Source: a virus
Virus record (IMG/VR): IMGVR_UViG_3300021373_000571
Span: 1-35,056 of that record
Length of the DNA stretch: 35,056 nucleotides
Reading direction: 5' to 3' (one strand)
Under the pieces are notes generated by a model that saw nothing but the letters and a program-made list of their open reading frames with translations, did not search any database and was not told the DNA's origin. Shown here piece by piece: positions 2,127 to 34,004 of this stretch. Within the stretch, counting starts at the first letter, position 1; every line of letters begins with the position of its first letter. The position numbers and the translations under genes are program-made.

Positions 2127-2210
2127 GGGACGGTGGTGGAATTGGTAGACACCCCAGACTTAAAATCTGTTGAGCGTATGCTCGTGCGGGTTCAAGTCCC
2201 GCTCGTCCTA
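2127..2210 (+). tRNA. tRNA-Leu (UAA)
   Basis: An 84-base type II tRNA. The acceptor GGGACGG pairs with TCGTCCT, with G-U pairs at the first and last positions. A GTGG D stem follows. The anticodon loop CTTAAAA gives anticodon TAA. There is a long variable arm, and the T arm is GCGGG-TTCAAGT-CCCGC. The discriminator base is A and no CCA is encoded. It starts on the base after the stop of the preceding gene, so 5' processing must cut directly at that stop. Confidence 0.95.
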
Positions 2211-2226
2211 TTGGCATTTTATAACT

Positions 2227-2874
2227 ATGACCGAAGAAAGAACATCAACACTGGAAAGAGTAGATCCTTTTTACCTTCCAATTTTCTTATACAATGATGC
2301 CATCACTGATGAGCAATGTGATACTCTAAGACAATATGCCGAACAACTAGATGATTGGGGTCCTTCATTTGAGACCAATGCAGTCTATGGGGACGGAAAT
2401 GCCATATACACGTCGAGTAGCAAAAATATAGTAGATGCTATGCCTGACATGAAGTTTCATTTTGAAGCATTAATGCAGGATATCTCTACACAATTAATGC
2501 ATCAAGCAACAGAAGGATTTTCTATCGGATCTTCTTGGTTCACTAGAACTAAAAAAGGTCAGACTAGCACAATGCATAATCATAAAAATTATTACATGTC
2601 AGGTATCTTATACTTGCAAGATGATAATAGATTGATTTTGCAAAATCCTCACTTTGATAAGACGCACTACCTGTTTGCTGTTAATGAGCAATCTCCATAC
2701 ACATGCACTACAACCATGGTTGCTCCACCTAAAAATTCATTCTTGTTGTTACCAGCATACCTATATCATCAAATTCCTCCGTATGAAAAAGATGATGTTC
2801 GTTACAGTCTTGTAATGAATTACTATCCAACTGGCACTTATGGGTTCGAAGCATCTCTTATTACTGTTAAATAG
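2227..2874 (+). CDS. 2OG-Fe(II) oxygenase family protein
   Basis: I chose the ATG at 2227 because the in-frame ATG at 2170 lies inside tRNA-Leu. The 215-residue product matches the phage/cyanobacterial 2OG-Fe(II) oxygenase type (PF13759-like). It has a double-stranded beta-helix core with H117-x-H119 just before MSGILYL, a second metal-ligand histidine at H181 (YLYHQIPPY) and an arginine at R192 (VRYSLVMNYY) expected to bind 2-oxoglutarate. Such enzymes hydroxylate proteins or small molecules using O2, Fe(II) and 2-oxoglutarate. They are very common in cyanophages, where their substrates are mostly unknown. The HxH in place of the usual HxD is typical of this subfamily. It lies between tRNA-Leu and the cpeT region. 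Confidence 0.85.
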   Translation: MTEERTSTLERVDPFYLPIFLYNDAITDEQCDTLRQYAEQLDDWGPSFETNAVYGDGNAIYTSSSKNIVDAMPDMKFHFEALMQDISTQLMHQATEGFSIGSSWFTRTKKGQTSTMHNHKNYYMSGILYLQDDNRLILQNPHFDKTHYLFAVNEQSPYTCTTTMVAPPKNSFLLLPAYLYHQIPPYEKDDVRYSLVMNYYPTGTYGFEASLITVK

Positions 2875-2902
2875 TAATGTCAGGAAAATTACACATATGT
2901 AG

Positions 2903-3184
2903 ATGGCAAAGTTCAAGTATACAATCAGCAGAAAACATGTCTTTGTTGACAACGAACCAGTTCTGATGTATTATATTGAGAGTATCCCATTTGCATTTGA
3001 CATTCTCGAAAATGACGAAAAGCAAGATAAGTGGATCCTGTCAGAATGTGCAATCAATCAAGAATATACACTTGAAGATATCTTTAGGTTCTCTGATTAT
3101 CTGATTGCTGAAGAATGCCACCCAGTTCTGTTTGAATTAGACCTCGTTAATCCAGAAGTTTTACCAGATGAATCAGTTTCTTGA
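2903..3184 (+). CDS. Hypothetical protein upstream of cpeT
   Basis: A 93-residue acidic protein with a basic first ten residues (MAKFKYTISRKH), several aromatic beta-like segments (VLMYYIESIPFAF), a DKW/LSEC centre and a very acidic C terminus. There is no signal peptide or membrane span. Its last 17 bases overlap the start of cpeT in another frame, so it is probably co-translated with the lyase and could act with it. I do not recognise the family. Confidence 0.75.
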   Translation: MAKFKYTISRKHVFVDNEPVLMYYIESIPFAFDILENDEKQDKWILSECAINQEYTLEDIFRFSDYLIAEECHPVLFELDLVNPEVLPDESVS

Positions 3185-3707
3185 TCTGCTTGTAGGAACA
3201 TTTTCTAACAAAATCCAAGCACAATCTCACCCCACTCGTTATGCTCACATCTGGGTAAATCATCGGAAACTTTCCGATAATCGCGTTTATGGCGAACAAG
3301 CATATAACTATCTTAAGAACAGACCATACCGACAGTTTGTTATTGAGGTGGTTGATGAAGGCAATGAAGTAGATGGCAACATCTATCGCCTTAAGAACTA
3401 CGAGATCAAAGATGCCAAGCAATTTGCTGAGTGCAAAAATCTCGAAAATCTTACGGATGACCTCTTGACATACCGTGAGGGATGCGATATAATTATGAGA
3501 CAGACAGGGAACTCCACCTTCACTGGTGGAACTTCTACTTGCAACTGTTATGTTGAGTGGCAGGGTGTTAAGACCTATGTTCAGAATGAAGTAATCCTCA
3601 GCGAAGAAGATTACCAAGTTGTTGATCGCGGTCTCCATACCGAAACCAATCAAAGAATTTGGGGTTCTGAATGGGGAGCATTCAAATTTGTTCGTATGGG
3701 GTTGTAG
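3168..3707 (+). CDS. cpeT: CpeT-like phycobiliprotein lyase
   Basis: This 179-residue protein has the CpeT/CpcT layout in order: LVGTFSNKIQAQ (residues 8-19), a YAHIWV strand, GEQAYNY (42-48), PYRQFVIEV (53-61), YRLKNYEIKDA, EGCDI (104-108), STCNCYVEW (123-131), DRG (153-155) and WGSEWGAFKF at the end. CpeT-family proteins are lipocalin-like bilin lyases or chaperones that attach chromophores such as phycoerythrobilin to cysteines of phycoerythrin. In cyanophages the gene is a known auxiliary metabolic gene, thought to keep light harvesting working during infection. The length is close to the family norm. The last three codons and the stop lie inside the acceptor stem of tRNA-Asp. It overlaps the preceding gene by 17 bases. 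Confidence 0.93.
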   Translation: MNQFLDLLVGTFSNKIQAQSHPTRYAHIWVNHRKLSDNRVYGEQAYNYLKNRPYRQFVIEVVDEGNEVDGNIYRLKNYEIKDAKQFAECKNLENLTDDLLTYREGCDIIMRQTGNSTFTGGTSTCNCYVEWQGVKTYVQNEVILSEEDYQVVDRGLHTETNQRIWGSEWGAFKFVRMGL

Positions 3708-3771
3708 CTCAGTCGGTTAGAGCGCCTGCCTGTCACGCAGGAAGTCGAGGGTTCAAGTCCCTTCAGTCCCG
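3698..3771 (+). tRNA. tRNA-Asp (GUC)
   Basis: A 74-base cloverleaf. The acceptor GGGGTTG pairs with CAGTCCC (two G-U pairs). The D stem is GCTC/GAGC, the anticodon stem is CCTGC/GCAGG with loop CTGTCAC (anticodon GTC), and the T arm is GAGGG-TTCAAGT-CCCTT. The discriminator is G and no CCA is encoded. The first 10 bases are also the end of cpeT. Confidence 0.95.
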
Positions 3772-3774
3772 TAT

Positions 3775-3848
3775 GCCACTATAGCTCAGCTGGATAGAGC
3801 AACGGTTTTGTAAACCGTAGGTCGTCGGTTCAAGTCCGACTTGTGGCT
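3775..3848 (+). tRNA. tRNA-Thr (UGU)
   Basis: A 74-base cloverleaf. The acceptor GCCACTA pairs with TTGTGGC with one T-T mismatch. The anticodon stem is ACGGT/ACCGT with loop TTTGTAA (anticodon TGT), and the T arm is GTCGG-TTCAAGT-CCGAC. It is 3 bases after tRNA-Asp. No CCA is encoded. Confidence 0.93.
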
Positions 3849-3850
3849 CT

Positions 3851-3869
3851 TGATAGGCATTGTCTATCA
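3851..3869 (+). repeat. Spacer hairpin after tRNA-Thr
   Basis: A 6-bp stem, TGATAG / CTATCA, with a 7-base loop begins 3 bases after tRNA-Thr. It is the first of two hairpins filling the 53-base gap before tRNA-Ala. No T tract follows, so a terminator role is unlikely. Confidence 0.6.
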
Positions 3870-3872
3870 TAC

Positions 3873-3897
3873 GGATCGGGATCATTATATCCGATCC
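3873..3897 (+). repeat. Second spacer hairpin before tRNA-Ala
   Basis: A 7-bp perfect stem, GGATCGG / CCGATCC, closes an 11-base loop and ends 4 bases before tRNA-Ala. There is no T tract after it. A role in holding the precursor RNA for processing fits the position, but that is inference. Confidence 0.65.
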
Positions 3898-3901
3898 ACT
3901 T

Positions 3902-3974
3902 GGGGAATTAGCTCAGTTGGTAGAGCACCTGCTTTGCAAGCAGGCTGTCAGGAGTTCGAGTCTCCTATTCTCCA
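3902..3974 (+). tRNA. tRNA-Ala (UGC)
   Basis: A 73-base cloverleaf. The acceptor GGGGAAT pairs with ATTCTCC. The D stem is GCTC/GAGC, the anticodon stem is CCTGC/GCAGG with loop TTTGCAA (anticodon TGC), and the T arm is AGGAG-TTCGAGT-CTCCT. The discriminator is A. No CCA is encoded. Confidence 0.95.
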
Positions 3975-3997
3975 TTCGCTATTTGCAAATAGCGAAT
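3974..3997 (+). repeat. Perfect 24-bp palindrome between tRNAs
   Basis: Two 10-base arms (ATTCGCTATT and AATAGCGAAT) flank TGCA, so the whole 24 bases equal their own reverse complement. In RNA this gives a 10-bp hairpin filling nearly the whole 25-base spacer between tRNA-Ala and tRNA-Asn. There is no T tract. It could guide tRNA processing or bind a dimeric protein. Confidence 0.8.
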
Positions 3998-3999
3998 AT

Positions 4000-4072
4000 T
4001 CCTCTATAGCTCAGTCGGTAGAGCGTCTGACTGTTAATCAGAATGTCCCTGGTTCGAGCCCAGGTGGAGGAG
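4000..4072 (+). tRNA. tRNA-Asn (GUU)
   Basis: A 73-base cloverleaf. The acceptor TCCTCTA pairs with TGGAGGA. The anticodon stem is TCTGA/TCAGA with loop CTGTTAA (anticodon GTT), and the T arm is CCTGG-TTCGAGC-CCAGG. The discriminator is G. No CCA is encoded. Confidence 0.95.
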
Positions 4073-4075
4073 TTA

Positions 4076-4157
4076 GGGTAGGTGTCCGAGTGGTTAATGG
4101 AGGCGGACTGTAAATCCGCTGGCTCTGCCTACGGGGGTTCAAATCCCTCCCTGCCCA
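4076..4157 (+). tRNA. tRNA-Tyr (GUA)
   Basis: An 82-base type II tRNA with a long variable arm. The acceptor GGGTAGG pairs with CCTGCCC (one T-G pair). The anticodon stem is GCGGA/TCCGC with loop CTGTAAA (anticodon GTA). The T-loop sequence is TTCAAAT. The discriminator is A. It follows tRNA-Asn by 3 bases. Confidence 0.94.
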
Positions 4158-28623: not shown

Positions 28624-29319
28624 ATGGGCACCACAACACAAAAGAAAGCAGGTTCTACGGCAAAACGCCAGGGACATGTTCAAGAAAGCAAATCCGCAGA
28701 TCGTCTGACTAAATCTACTGGTTTCGAGCACACTACAGACGGTGCTAACAACACCAAACGAGACGTTATTTGTGAAGATCTAGAGCTCTATTATAGTCAG
28801 AAGTCTGTATCTGGAAAGAACACTCAATGCCATCTCACCTCTTGGAATGTGTGGTGTGATTACTTCAACATCACTGGAGAACTTCGCCAGTGGTTTGGAT
28901 TGTTCTTCGGTACTTCTGGGGAAGATGTTAGCAACGGTGCTCATCCTCAGCGTCGTGTTGTTGATAGCGAACTGAATGATCTTGGGGTCAAGTGGTTCAA
29001 CGATCACAAAATGGAGACCTTTGATGCTATCGTTCGCAAGGGTATCTATCTCAATCGAAAGACCAAACAGATTGAAGTTGGCGAACCTGTCAACAAAATG
29101 ATATGGTATAATAAGAAGACTGGAGATCTCAAAACCTTTGACATTCAGAAGATTGCTGATGTTATTGAAGGTGGACAGTGGGTTATGCAACCCTCTACAC
29201 TTTGGTTCATTGATGCTAACGGCAACAAACTATTTCACCTTCAGATGAAAGGATCTGGAGAGAAGTTCACCTCTGGTTATCACTCCCTGATGTTCCACAT
29301 TTACGAACCCCAAGTATGA
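28624..29319 (+). CDS. Putative restriction-type nuclease (uncertain)
   Basis: A 231-residue protein with a basic N terminus and no clear family. Two segments could form a PD-(D/E)xK-type site. One is E35, then TKRDVIC with D47, then YYSQKS with K60. The other is a C-terminal D197-x9-Q207-M-K209 (FHLQMKGSGEKF). Both have a non-standard residue two places before the lysine, so the assignment is tentative. The gene lies 4 bases after the helicase and overlaps the methyltransferase by 4 bases (ATGA), the usual arrangement for a type II restriction enzyme and its methylase. Alternatives are a DNA-binding accessory or an unrelated phage protein. Confidence 0.45.
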   Translation: MGTTTQKKAGSTAKRQGHVQESKSADRLTKSTGFEHTTDGANNTKRDVICEDLELYYSQKSVSGKNTQCHLTSWNVWCDYFNITGELRQWFGLFFGTSGEDVSNGAHPQRRVVDSELNDLGVKWFNDHKMETFDAIVRKGIYLNRKTKQIEVGEPVNKMIWYNKKTGDLKTFDIQKIADVIEGGQWVMQPSTLWFIDANGNKLFHLQMKGSGEKFTSGYHSLMFHIYEPQV

Positions 29320-30041
29320 TTATCAATAAAGACTGTATCGAAGGTATGAAAGAGATGGAAGACAATTCCATCGATTGTATTGTCACATCTCCACCATACA
29401 ACAAGAAAGGTCTACTTGGCAAGGTCAAGCAGGGTAATCAAATCTGGGGTAAATTCCAGATTGATTACAATACCTATGGTGATGACATGCCCGAGGATGA
29501 GTATCAGGCATGGATGATAGCATTTCTAAATGAGTGTCATCGTATTATTAAACCTGATGGTTCTATCTTTTTTAATCACAAACCACGAAGATTTAAAAAT
29601 AGATGCTATTTGCCCACTGATTTTATTATACATAGTGACGCTCAGTTGTATCAACTGATCATTTGGGATAGGAGAAACTCTCCTAACATTCGTAATGATG
29701 TTCTCGTGCCATGCACAGAACATATCTATTGGTTCTGTAAAAAGAAACCAAAAGTATTTCGGGATGCTATCTCTCCAGAATATAGAGGAGAGGTATGGGT
29801 TATCAATCCCGAGCGTCAAAAGCAACACCCAGCACCATTTCCTGAACAGTTGGTGCGTAACTGTATCCAACTGACTACACAGGAAGGTGACATCGTACTA
29901 GATCCTTTTATGGGTTCTGGTACTACTGCTAAAGTTGCAACAGATCTTAACCGTAACTGGATAGGGTTTGACATTGACGAAAAGTATGCTAAAATAACCC
30001 AAGAACGCACAAAGAAAGGACTTGCTTCTTTCCTTGGGTGA
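29316..30041 (+). CDS. Beta-class DNA methyltransferase (N6-A or N4-C)
   Basis: A 241-residue SAM-dependent amino-methyltransferase. The catalytic motif IV TSPPYN (24-29) comes first and the SAM-binding motif I DPFMGSGTTA (196-205) is near the C terminus, the permuted order of the beta class. FPEQL (about 176) and WIGFDID (220-226) are the usual flanking motifs. TSPPY is found in both N4-cytosine and N6-adenine enzymes, so the base cannot be decided here. It overlaps the preceding putative nuclease gene by 4 bases. In a phage it could protect DNA from host restriction or serve as the modification half of a phage restriction pair. Confidence 0.92.
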   Translation: MIINKDCIEGMKEMEDNSIDCIVTSPPYNKKGLLGKVKQGNQIWGKFQIDYNTYGDDMPEDEYQAWMIAFLNECHRIIKPDGSIFFNHKPRRFKNRCYLPTDFIIHSDAQLYQLIIWDRRNSPNIRNDVLVPCTEHIYWFCKKKPKVFRDAISPEYRGEVWVINPERQKQHPAPFPEQLVRNCIQLTTQEGDIVLDPFMGSGTTAKVATDLNRNWIGFDIDEKYAKITQERTKKGLASFLG

Positions 30042-32457: not shown

Positions 32458-32509
32458 CATGACTGAACATGCTAAAACTGAACTGCATCCGATTTGGGGT
32501 GACAGTTGA
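32351..32509 (+). CDS. Small hypothetical protein overlapping the previous gene
   Basis: A 52-residue protein, basic then mixed, with YAVVWMKNKKKG at the start, a FYNLEDAIMWEQH helix and ending HPIWGDS. The sequence looks like a small alpha/beta domain and is more protein-like than the other frame across the same bases. It ends 10 bases before a strong terminator. Confidence 0.62.
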   Translation: MKYAVVWMKNKKKGQAKQQAIFYNLEDAIMWEQHVNMTEHAKTELHPIWGDS

Positions 32510-32519
32510 GAAACTGGTT

Positions 32520-32545
32520 GGGGCGCTTGACACCGCCCCTTTTTT
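32520..32545 (+). terminator. Rho-independent terminator
   Basis: A perfect 6-bp GC stem, GGGGCG / CGCCCC, with an 8-base loop is followed by six T residues. It ends the small-gene operon. The loop contains a TTGACA that can serve as a -35 box for the next gene. Confidence 0.88.
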
Positions 32546-32557
32546 ATGTCATACTAT
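32527..32557 (+). promoter_or_regulatory. Promoter overlapping the terminator
   Basis: TTGACA (32527-32532, in the terminator loop) and TACTAT (32552-32557) are separated by 19 bases, slightly long. Transcription would begin near 32564, which makes the ATG at 32579 the first usable start of the nuclease gene. Confidence 0.5.
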
Positions 32558-32578: not shown

Positions 32579-33145
32579 ATGTCTTATCTTGAAGAGAACC
32601 TTCTGCCTCTCATCTTGGGTATTAAAACGCCCAAGACTGATAGTTATATTATGATCGCTGCTGGTCTTGGCGACAACACCAGTCAAAGCAGTGTGCTGAT
32701 CCAAGTTGGTAACAAACTTGAGATCTTCTGGAACAATGTGATCAGCGCCTGCACCACTAATCTTATCGAAGAGAATAACAAGATCAAGGTCAATGGCAAG
32801 AACCGCCAACTTGATCACCTGTTTGGTGATGACTTGATCTATTATCTTGAGAGCAAGTGTAACCTCAACTTTGATACTGAAAAGAAACCTGCTAGCAACG
32901 ACAAGATTGAGGCAGTGTGTGCTGCTGTCAATGAGAAGTATGATCGTTGTGTGTTCTCTGGTTACTTCGTGCCTTGTATCCGTGAGATCCCTGCTGATGT
33001 GAAGAAGAAATACCCCAATGTCAACATTTATGGTGTAGAATGGATGCTGGACACTCTCAAATGTGATCTGTTCACTGCTGATGAGTTTTTCGCCTTCTTT
33101 GAGGAGGTTGTCGGTCCTATTCTTGAGGAAAAGATCTATGCTTAA
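32579..33145 (+). CDS. PD-(D/E)xK nuclease, likely type II restriction enzyme
   Basis: A 188-residue protein from the ATG at 32579. The in-frame ATGs at 32546 and 32558 are less likely because the terminator and the -10 box lie there. The core motif is RQLDHLF (D79) followed by YYLESKCNLNFDTEK, giving E91-S-K93: D, eleven residues, then E-x-K. This is the classic restriction-nuclease active site; the two acidic residues would bind Mg2+ and the lysine activate water. LEIFWNN (E48) could supply a further acidic residue. Basic segments flank the site, as expected for DNA binding. The last 8 bases overlap a Dam-like methyltransferase gene, the standard layout of a restriction-modification pair. 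The target site is unknown. Confidence 0.65.
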   Translation: MSYLEENLLPLILGIKTPKTDSYIMIAAGLGDNTSQSSVLIQVGNKLEIFWNNVISACTTNLIEENNKIKVNGKNRQLDHLFGDDLIYYLESKCNLNFDTEKKPASNDKIEAVCAAVNEKYDRCVFSGYFVPCIREIPADVKKKYPNVNIYGVEWMLDTLKCDLFTADEFFAFFEEVVGPILEEKIYA

Positions 33146-34004
33146 ACCGCTGGTCAAATACCAGGGTGGTAAGTCTCGTGAACTGAAGACTATCACCAAG
33201 ATGATGCCCAAAGAGTTCAATCGTGTGGTTGAACCATTCTGTGGTGGTGCTGCTGTGTCATTCCACATTGGCAAACCTGCTGTGTTGTGTGATACTAACT
33301 GGGAGATTATCAATCTCTATCGTAGTATTGTAGACAACCAAGGTTTGCGTCGTTTGACTATGCGAGCAGACGAATTGCGTAAGATGGACCACGATCAATT
33401 AGAGGAAGTATTCTATGCTTCTCGTGGTGACATCAATCAACCATTTGATGAGGATAGAGAAACACGATGGGGACGCGCTCTGGCATACATTACTGTGCGT
33501 CAGTTGTGCTTCTCTGGCATGGAAAGATACAATGCTAATGGCGAGTTCAATGTGCCATTCGGTCACTATAAGAAGTTTGCCTGCAATCTGACGTATGAAA
33601 ACTCTGGTCAATACTGGGACATGCTCAGACAATCTACCATCCTACATGGTGACTTTGAGTTAGCACTTGATCGTGCGGAAGCAGATGACTTTGTATTCAT
33701 TGATCCTCCGTATCTTGAGCGTCTGGGATATCATAGTGGTGATGGTGGTGATGATGTTCACTCTCGTCTTGCGGAAAAACTAAAGAATGCTCCGTATAAG
33801 TGGATGATTGTCCACTCTGACCATGAGTTTTACCGCGAAGCATACAAGGATTTCCACATTATGACTAAGGATTTCCAGTATGCTCAGCGATTTGGTAAGG
33901 ACAAGGATCATTCTAGTGCCAAAGTCCAGCACCTATACATCACAAACTATCCAGTTGATGAACTGGCACACCCTACCGTCACGGCGCACCTGGACGCTGT
34001 ATGA
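33138..34004 (+). CDS. Dam-like N6-adenine DNA methyltransferase
   Basis: A 288-residue alpha-class (D12) methyltransferase. The start at 33138 was chosen because it gives the canonical opening KPLVKYQGGKS (3-13). An earlier in-frame ATG at 33063 adds 25 residues of unlike sequence within the upstream gene. Motif I is VEPFCGGAAVSF (31-42), CDTNWEIINLY (51-61) is the post-I strand, CFSGMERYN is the target-recognition side, and the catalytic motif IV is FIDPPYLERLGY (187-198). These enzymes methylate adenine, often in GATC. It overlaps the restriction-type nuclease by 8 bases and its TGA lies within the next promoter. It may protect phage DNA from the neighbouring nuclease or from host enzymes. 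Confidence 0.92.
   Translation: MLKPLVKYQGGKSRELKTITKMMPKEFNRVVEPFCGGAAVSFHIGKPAVLCDTNWEIINLYRSIVDNQGLRRLTMRADELRKMDHDQLEEVFYASRGDINQPFDEDRETRWGRALAYITVRQLCFSGMERYNANGEFNVPFGHYKKFACNLTYENSGQYWDMLRQSTILHGDFELALDRAEADDFVFIDPPYLERLGYHSGDGGDDVHSRLAEKLKNAPYKWMIVHSDHEFYREAYKDFHIMTKDFQYAQRFGKDKDHSSAKVQHLYITNYPVDELAHPTVTAHLDAV

Follow-up and report, generated by a model that had tools for sequence, protein, structure and literature searches.

A candidate Type II-like restriction-modification cassette in a T4-like cyanophage

The locus and its surroundings

The window, by which we mean the whole stretch of DNA analysed, is a virus record of 35,056 bases. It belongs to a T4-like cyanophage that has Synechococcus phage S-WAM2 as a close relative, and in the region considered here the two are 93% identical in DNA. 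Two overlapping genes, P0001 and P0002, make up a candidate cassette with the following features:

32503..32517, + strand: left copy of an imperfect 15-bp direct repeat, CAGTTGAGAAACTGG, which bounds the cassette
32520..32545, + strand: intrinsic-terminator-like hairpin with a T run, just 5' of P0001, splitting the pair from the upstream genes (suggestive only)
32527..32555, + strand: promoter-like TTGACA-17-CATACT with TG before the second hexamer, inside the terminator hairpin (a consensus match only)
32579..33145, + strand: P0001, 188 aa, gene for a PD-(D/E)xK-type nuclease, the predicted restriction endonuclease half, with predicted catalytic residues E48, D79, E91 and K93
33138..34004, + strand: P0002, 288 aa, Dam-family (D12, alpha-class) N6-adenine DNA methyltransferase, the predicted protecting half, probably acting at GATC
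33952..33966, + strand: right copy of the repeat, CAGTTGATGAACTGG, within the last codons of P0002

Two terminator-like hairpins were found against 1.3 expected in shuffles. Although a longer open reading frame begins at 32546, homologues favour the ATG at 32579 as the start of P0001; P0002 is read from the ATG at 33138 to 34004, so that the genes share the 8 bases 33138-33145. Elsewhere in the window, six tRNA genes (Leu, Asp, Thr, Ala, Asn and Tyr) lie at 2127-4157.

The predicted nuclease and its methyltransferase neighbour

An earlier, sequence-only reading had drawn attention to a D-x11-E-x-K motif in a small protein overlapping by 8 bases a Dam-like methyltransferase with KYQGGK, EPFCGG and DPPY, and the translations contain all of these elements, the first as RQLDHLF...YYLESK (D79-x11-E91-x-K93). 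The P0001 protein is identical (100%) to a gene product of S-WAM2 and 50% identical to one of S-CAM8, and it falls in PHROG 26553, a group of unknown function (6e-98). Pfam and NCBIfam hold no family for it; a weak match to Phage_connect_2 (0.04) lay below the cut-off and was dismissed. Sequence searches of solved structures, with P0001 alone and with a 34-sequence profile, returned nothing meaningful, while the PADLOC models of Type II restriction enzymes (REase_II) matched 6 of 34 family members weakly, the best at 1.1e-5. A profile scan of bacterial and archaeal genomes found no P0001-type nuclease and a plasmid collection held no match to one divergent family member, results that may reflect the narrow patterns used.

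Relatives of P0001 were gathered from IMG/VR, and in 34 diverse sequences G44, E48, Q77, D79, E91, K93, D99, E101 and K102 are invariant. When the set was extended to 67 distinct members, with identity down to about 20%, E48, D79, E91 and K93 showed zero substitutions, apart from a gap in one or two rows; the D, E and K on which the sequence-only reading had staked its case are thus kept in homologues. Judged by a dN/dS of 0.06-0.12 between close pairs, the family is under purifying selection. In a single protein a D-x11-ExK string might arise by chance, but the absence of substitutions together with these ratios shows that the one in P0001 did not. Strong selection on the nuclease and its unsubstituted catalytic residues also weigh against the idea that the pair is a relic, or that the nuclease is inactive and only the methyltransferase matters. 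We give this idea almost no credence, even though nuclease activity is a prediction and orphan versions of the methyltransferase exist, for example in the locus L104.

An AlphaFold model of P0001, built on the alignment rows of its relatives (pLDDT 92.4, pTM 0.87), places E48 on a helix, D79 on a strand and E91-x-K93 on a further strand, followed by a helix (105-121) and a strand (125-130). This is the order of elements in the PD-(D/E)xK core. The structural neighbours of the model are almost all PD-(D/E)xK nucleases, among them R2 endonuclease domains, EcoO109I, XisH, Can2/Card1, McrC, EcoRII, PspGI, HindIII and FokI, and the structure comparison that the sequence-only reading had proposed as a check therefore led to nucleases and not to a non-nuclease fold. 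Over the whole model the best match is EcoO109I (PDB 1wtd/1wte; Z 7.5, 169 residues, 4.6 A), a larger enzyme which is only 10% identical to P0001 and from which a different recognition sequence is expected. MutH, Sau3AI and DpnII are absent among the structural matches listed, and in a comparison with other viral models the S-CAM8 protein was the top match, with a protein of phage STML-198 lower down. It should be noted that the best fold scores are moderate (Foldseek E 6.5e-4, Z 7.8), a level which, according to the tool, can reflect a common arrangement; hence there is good support for the fold class and not for a specific family. With this in mind, we predict that P0001 has a PD-(D/E)xK nuclease fold and its catalytic residues.

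P0002 (METHYLTRANSFERASE) matches PF02086 at 5.5e-46 (157.8 bits, cut-off 22) and TIGR00571 at 184 bits (cut-off 114.85), and by these curated family scores and its DPPY and FxGG motifs it is a Dam/D12-class N6-adenine methyltransferase, as the sequence-only reading had held. Its closest solved relative is DpnM (2dpm, 6e-28), with 7m6b and E. coli Dam next in order. The recognition hairpin, FSGMERYN...FNVPFG, resembles FSNMIRIN...FTTPFG of T4 Dam; the common pattern FSxMxRxN...PFG is absent from the second Dam-like enzyme, the core one, that these cyanophages carry. In both T4 Dam and E. coli Dam we take these hairpin residues to recognise GATC. Given this pattern and the presence of DpnM and E. 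coli Dam among the closest solved relatives, GATC is our best guess, of moderate strength, for the target of P0002.

The sequence-only reading rightly had GATC occurring freely in the window (231 sites against 228 expected), where most other 4-bp palindromes are depleted (CCGG 0 against 21 expected, GGCC 3 against 19, GTAC 18 against 112). These counts do not discriminate, since in S-RSM4, which is without the pair at this site, GATC is likewise not depleted; for this reason GATC avoidance was dropped as a test of specificity. As further observations on composition, AGCT is strongly depleted in the window, as are GGCC and GTAC, and 40 kb of each of the phages S-WAM2, S-CAM8 and S-RSM4 likewise contain no CCGG.

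Linkage, exchange and mobility of the pair

Among loci drawn from fragmentary viral contigs, a methyltransferase of the P0002 clade is adjacent to or near the P0001-type nuclease in 60 of 79 cases, mostly directly downstream of it and in seven loci upstream, so that both gene orders occur. Approached from the methyltransferase side, a P0001-type nuclease lies next door in 49 of the best 80 loci; because some contigs turn up in both searches, the two counts cannot be treated as independent. A linked nuclease, which had been thought much less expected in cyanophages than a methylase, is instead common in these phages. The 19 nuclease loci without an adjacent P0002-clade methyltransferase are mostly fragments in which linkage cannot be judged; in one record the methyltransferase lies about 8 kb from the nuclease (L057), and in another it is found elsewhere in 177 kb (L015).

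Three single loci may be mentioned in passing. In L064 (858-2454), another of these 19, the methyltransferase that abuts the P0001-type nuclease is of the beta class and not of the Dam type, and the short contig L048 carries tandem nuclease paralogues (1355-1912 and 2198-2752) with no adjacent methyltransferase. The contig L307 is binned in an archaeal MAG (TMED129), but with genes for the methyltransferase, a divergent nuclease of the P0001 type and a helicase it has the look of a cyanophage piece placed there in error.

About 13 further loci of the best 80 bear a divergent or unrelated nuclease. Divergent members of the P0001 family stand beside the methyltransferase in L126, L146 and L149. 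Elsewhere a different protein lies directly upstream: in seven loci one with HHVDILV...AINSKGKS or similar and in one locus one with GWDFMV...LQVKR, both nuclease-like from their motifs only, and in two loci an HNH nuclease (1.4e-16). A D...DxK protein (KVDIVA...VIDVKSS or VDVKSS) also overlaps a methyltransferase, here 40-42% identical, in the phages KP179 of Klebsiella and STML-198 of Salmonella. Across 52 distinct pairs the nuclease and methyltransferase halves co-vary (r 0.34, against at most 0.23 in 1000 permutations), with sharp exceptions in which methyltransferases that are 95% identical stand beside nucleases that are 21% identical and retain the catalytic residues. Such swapping is compatible with, though no test of, a target site common to methyltransferase and endonuclease.

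It might be argued that P0001 is an ordinary enzyme of phage DNA metabolism, which serves to break down host DNA or acts in repair or recombination, and that P0002 is an orphan methyltransferase with a separate function such as shielding the phage from host restriction. Orphan methyltransferases are indeed common in phages, copies such as that of L104 exist, some nuclease loci are without an adjacent methyltransferase, and the fold matches of P0001 include the repair nucleases EndoMS and a Pyrococcus repair endonuclease. We nevertheless consider this explanation unlikely, as adjacency is conserved from both sides, in both gene orders and in many backgrounds, as the place of P0001 next to this methyltransferase clade can be taken by unrelated nucleases, and as relatives either have the cassette as a whole or lack it as a whole.

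One case of absence is S-RSM4, in which the flanking sequence with one such repeat site, and no cassette, constitutes a precise empty site. In S-H9-1 other genes occupy the cassette position, and L104 carries the methyltransferase alone next to the same upstream neighbour as the cassette. The empty site and the 15-bp imperfect direct repeat, along with frequent swapping and a scattered distribution, could suggest that P0001 is a free-standing homing-type endonuclease that spreads the cassette, with the methyltransferase as cargo or as protection for the recipient. However, the neighbourhoods of the pair vary widely between phages and no single insertion site is apparent, and we know of no homing enzyme that needs a conserved partner methyltransferase of this kind; homing is thus a very improbable account of the locus.

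Proposed role, known counterparts and a second pair

A restriction-modification pair, as the sequence-only reading had proposed, fits better than any of these rivals, on account of the conserved two-way linkage and of the swapping beside near-identical methyltransferases. Separate and adjacent genes for endonuclease and methyltransferase, as in Type II systems, are found here (8-bp overlap; 60 of 79 and 49 of 80 loci). In our judgement P0001 and P0002 are very probably a Type II-like restriction-modification cassette of a virulent T4-like cyanophage, which would be used on unmarked DNA of the host, of rivals or of both. This view draws on the gene overlap, the predicted fold, the invariant residues, selection, linkage, cassette mobility and nuclease swapping, from which we infer cutting, the shared target, GATC and the role. 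The nuclease would recognise a short site, most likely GATC, and cut double-stranded DNA there when the site is unmethylated, and P0002, encoded by the overlapping and probably co-transcribed gene, would mark adenine in the same site and so spare the phage DNA. Within the infected cell the nuclease may then attack whatever DNA is unmarked, that is, the host chromosome, rival phage genomes or both. Picocyanobacteria, the host lineage, would mostly be without the GATC methyltransferase of other cyanobacteria: they belong to C1, and it is among the cyanobacteria outside this one group that dmtA, the gene for the GATC methyltransferase, is nearly universal (PMC4390886); host DNA could therefore be a target.

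By its alpha-class Dam-like methyltransferase, with DpnM as best solved relative, and its adjacent endonuclease, the pair resembles GATC Type II systems of the DpnII/MboI/MjaIII kind. It differs from them in that no sequence match ties P0001 to a named restriction-enzyme family, that the carrier is a virulent phage and that GATC is here an inferred site. Virus-encoded, adjacent endonuclease and methyltransferase genes are also found in the CviAII and CviJI systems of chloroviruses, whose packaged restriction endonucleases are thought to break down host DNA (PMC7019647), although those belong to a virus of eukaryotic algae. Likewise virus-borne is the GATC pair of a marseillevirus, which spares the virus and appears to be aimed at competitor DNA lacking the pair; unlike the cyanophage, this virus infects amoebae, and host DNA is not degraded there (PMC7253447).

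In open-licence papers we found no report of the cyanophage P0001/P0002 pair. Restriction-modification is usually described as a bacterial defence against phages. If our reading is correct, a common cassette in virulent phages would mean that they wield it as a weapon, much as some viruses of algae and amoebae do, and that they have a means of excluding one another from marine photosynthetic hosts that are abundant. It would also give a name to the nuclease family of PHROG 26553 and put new restriction enzymes on offer. As S-WAM2 and S-CAM8 are isolated phages that carry the pair, the reading is directly testable.

A second candidate pair, absent from the sequence-only reading, sits 2.5 kb upstream of P0001/P0002:

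28624..29319, + strand: P0003, 231 aa, second candidate restriction enzyme with a predicted HinP1I/MspI-like fold
29316..30041, + strand: P0004, beta-class DNA methyltransferase (N6_N4_Mtase, SPPY motif), overlapping P0003 by 4 bp

The P0003 model (pLDDT 87.7) matches HinP1I with Z 17.8 (207 residues, 3.3 A) and 15.9 and MspI with Z 11.7, and Foldseek gives 8.7e-8. This is a stronger fold match than that of P0001, and P0003 is thus predicted to have a HinP1I-like fold over most of the protein. Its identity to HinP1I and MspI is nevertheless 12-14%, and P0003 differs from them in being phage-borne and paired with a beta-class methyltransferase. Such a methyltransferase directly follows the P0003-type nuclease in 84 of 138 family loci, and the combination also occurs in S-CAM22 and Sf-CH1b, while the block at 28.6-31.3 kb is missing at a clean junction in S-WAM2 and S-H9-1. 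A broader generalization, which we put forward tentatively and with slightly less than even confidence, is that T4-like virulent phages, cyanophages above all, carry widespread offensive cassettes in which unrelated nucleases are swapped in beside a conserved methyltransferase that maintains protection of a single site, some phages stacking two of them against host and rival-phage DNA.

Two minor observations concern the second pair. P0006 (30095-31297; PHROG 15918, of unknown function) comes after it, and this neighbourhood is conserved in L168, L169 and L269. In several loci, among them L202 (621-1196; 7e-11) and L176 (3166-3744; 5e-7), the P0003-type nuclease adjoins a DruA-domain protein (PF14236) instead of a methyltransferase.
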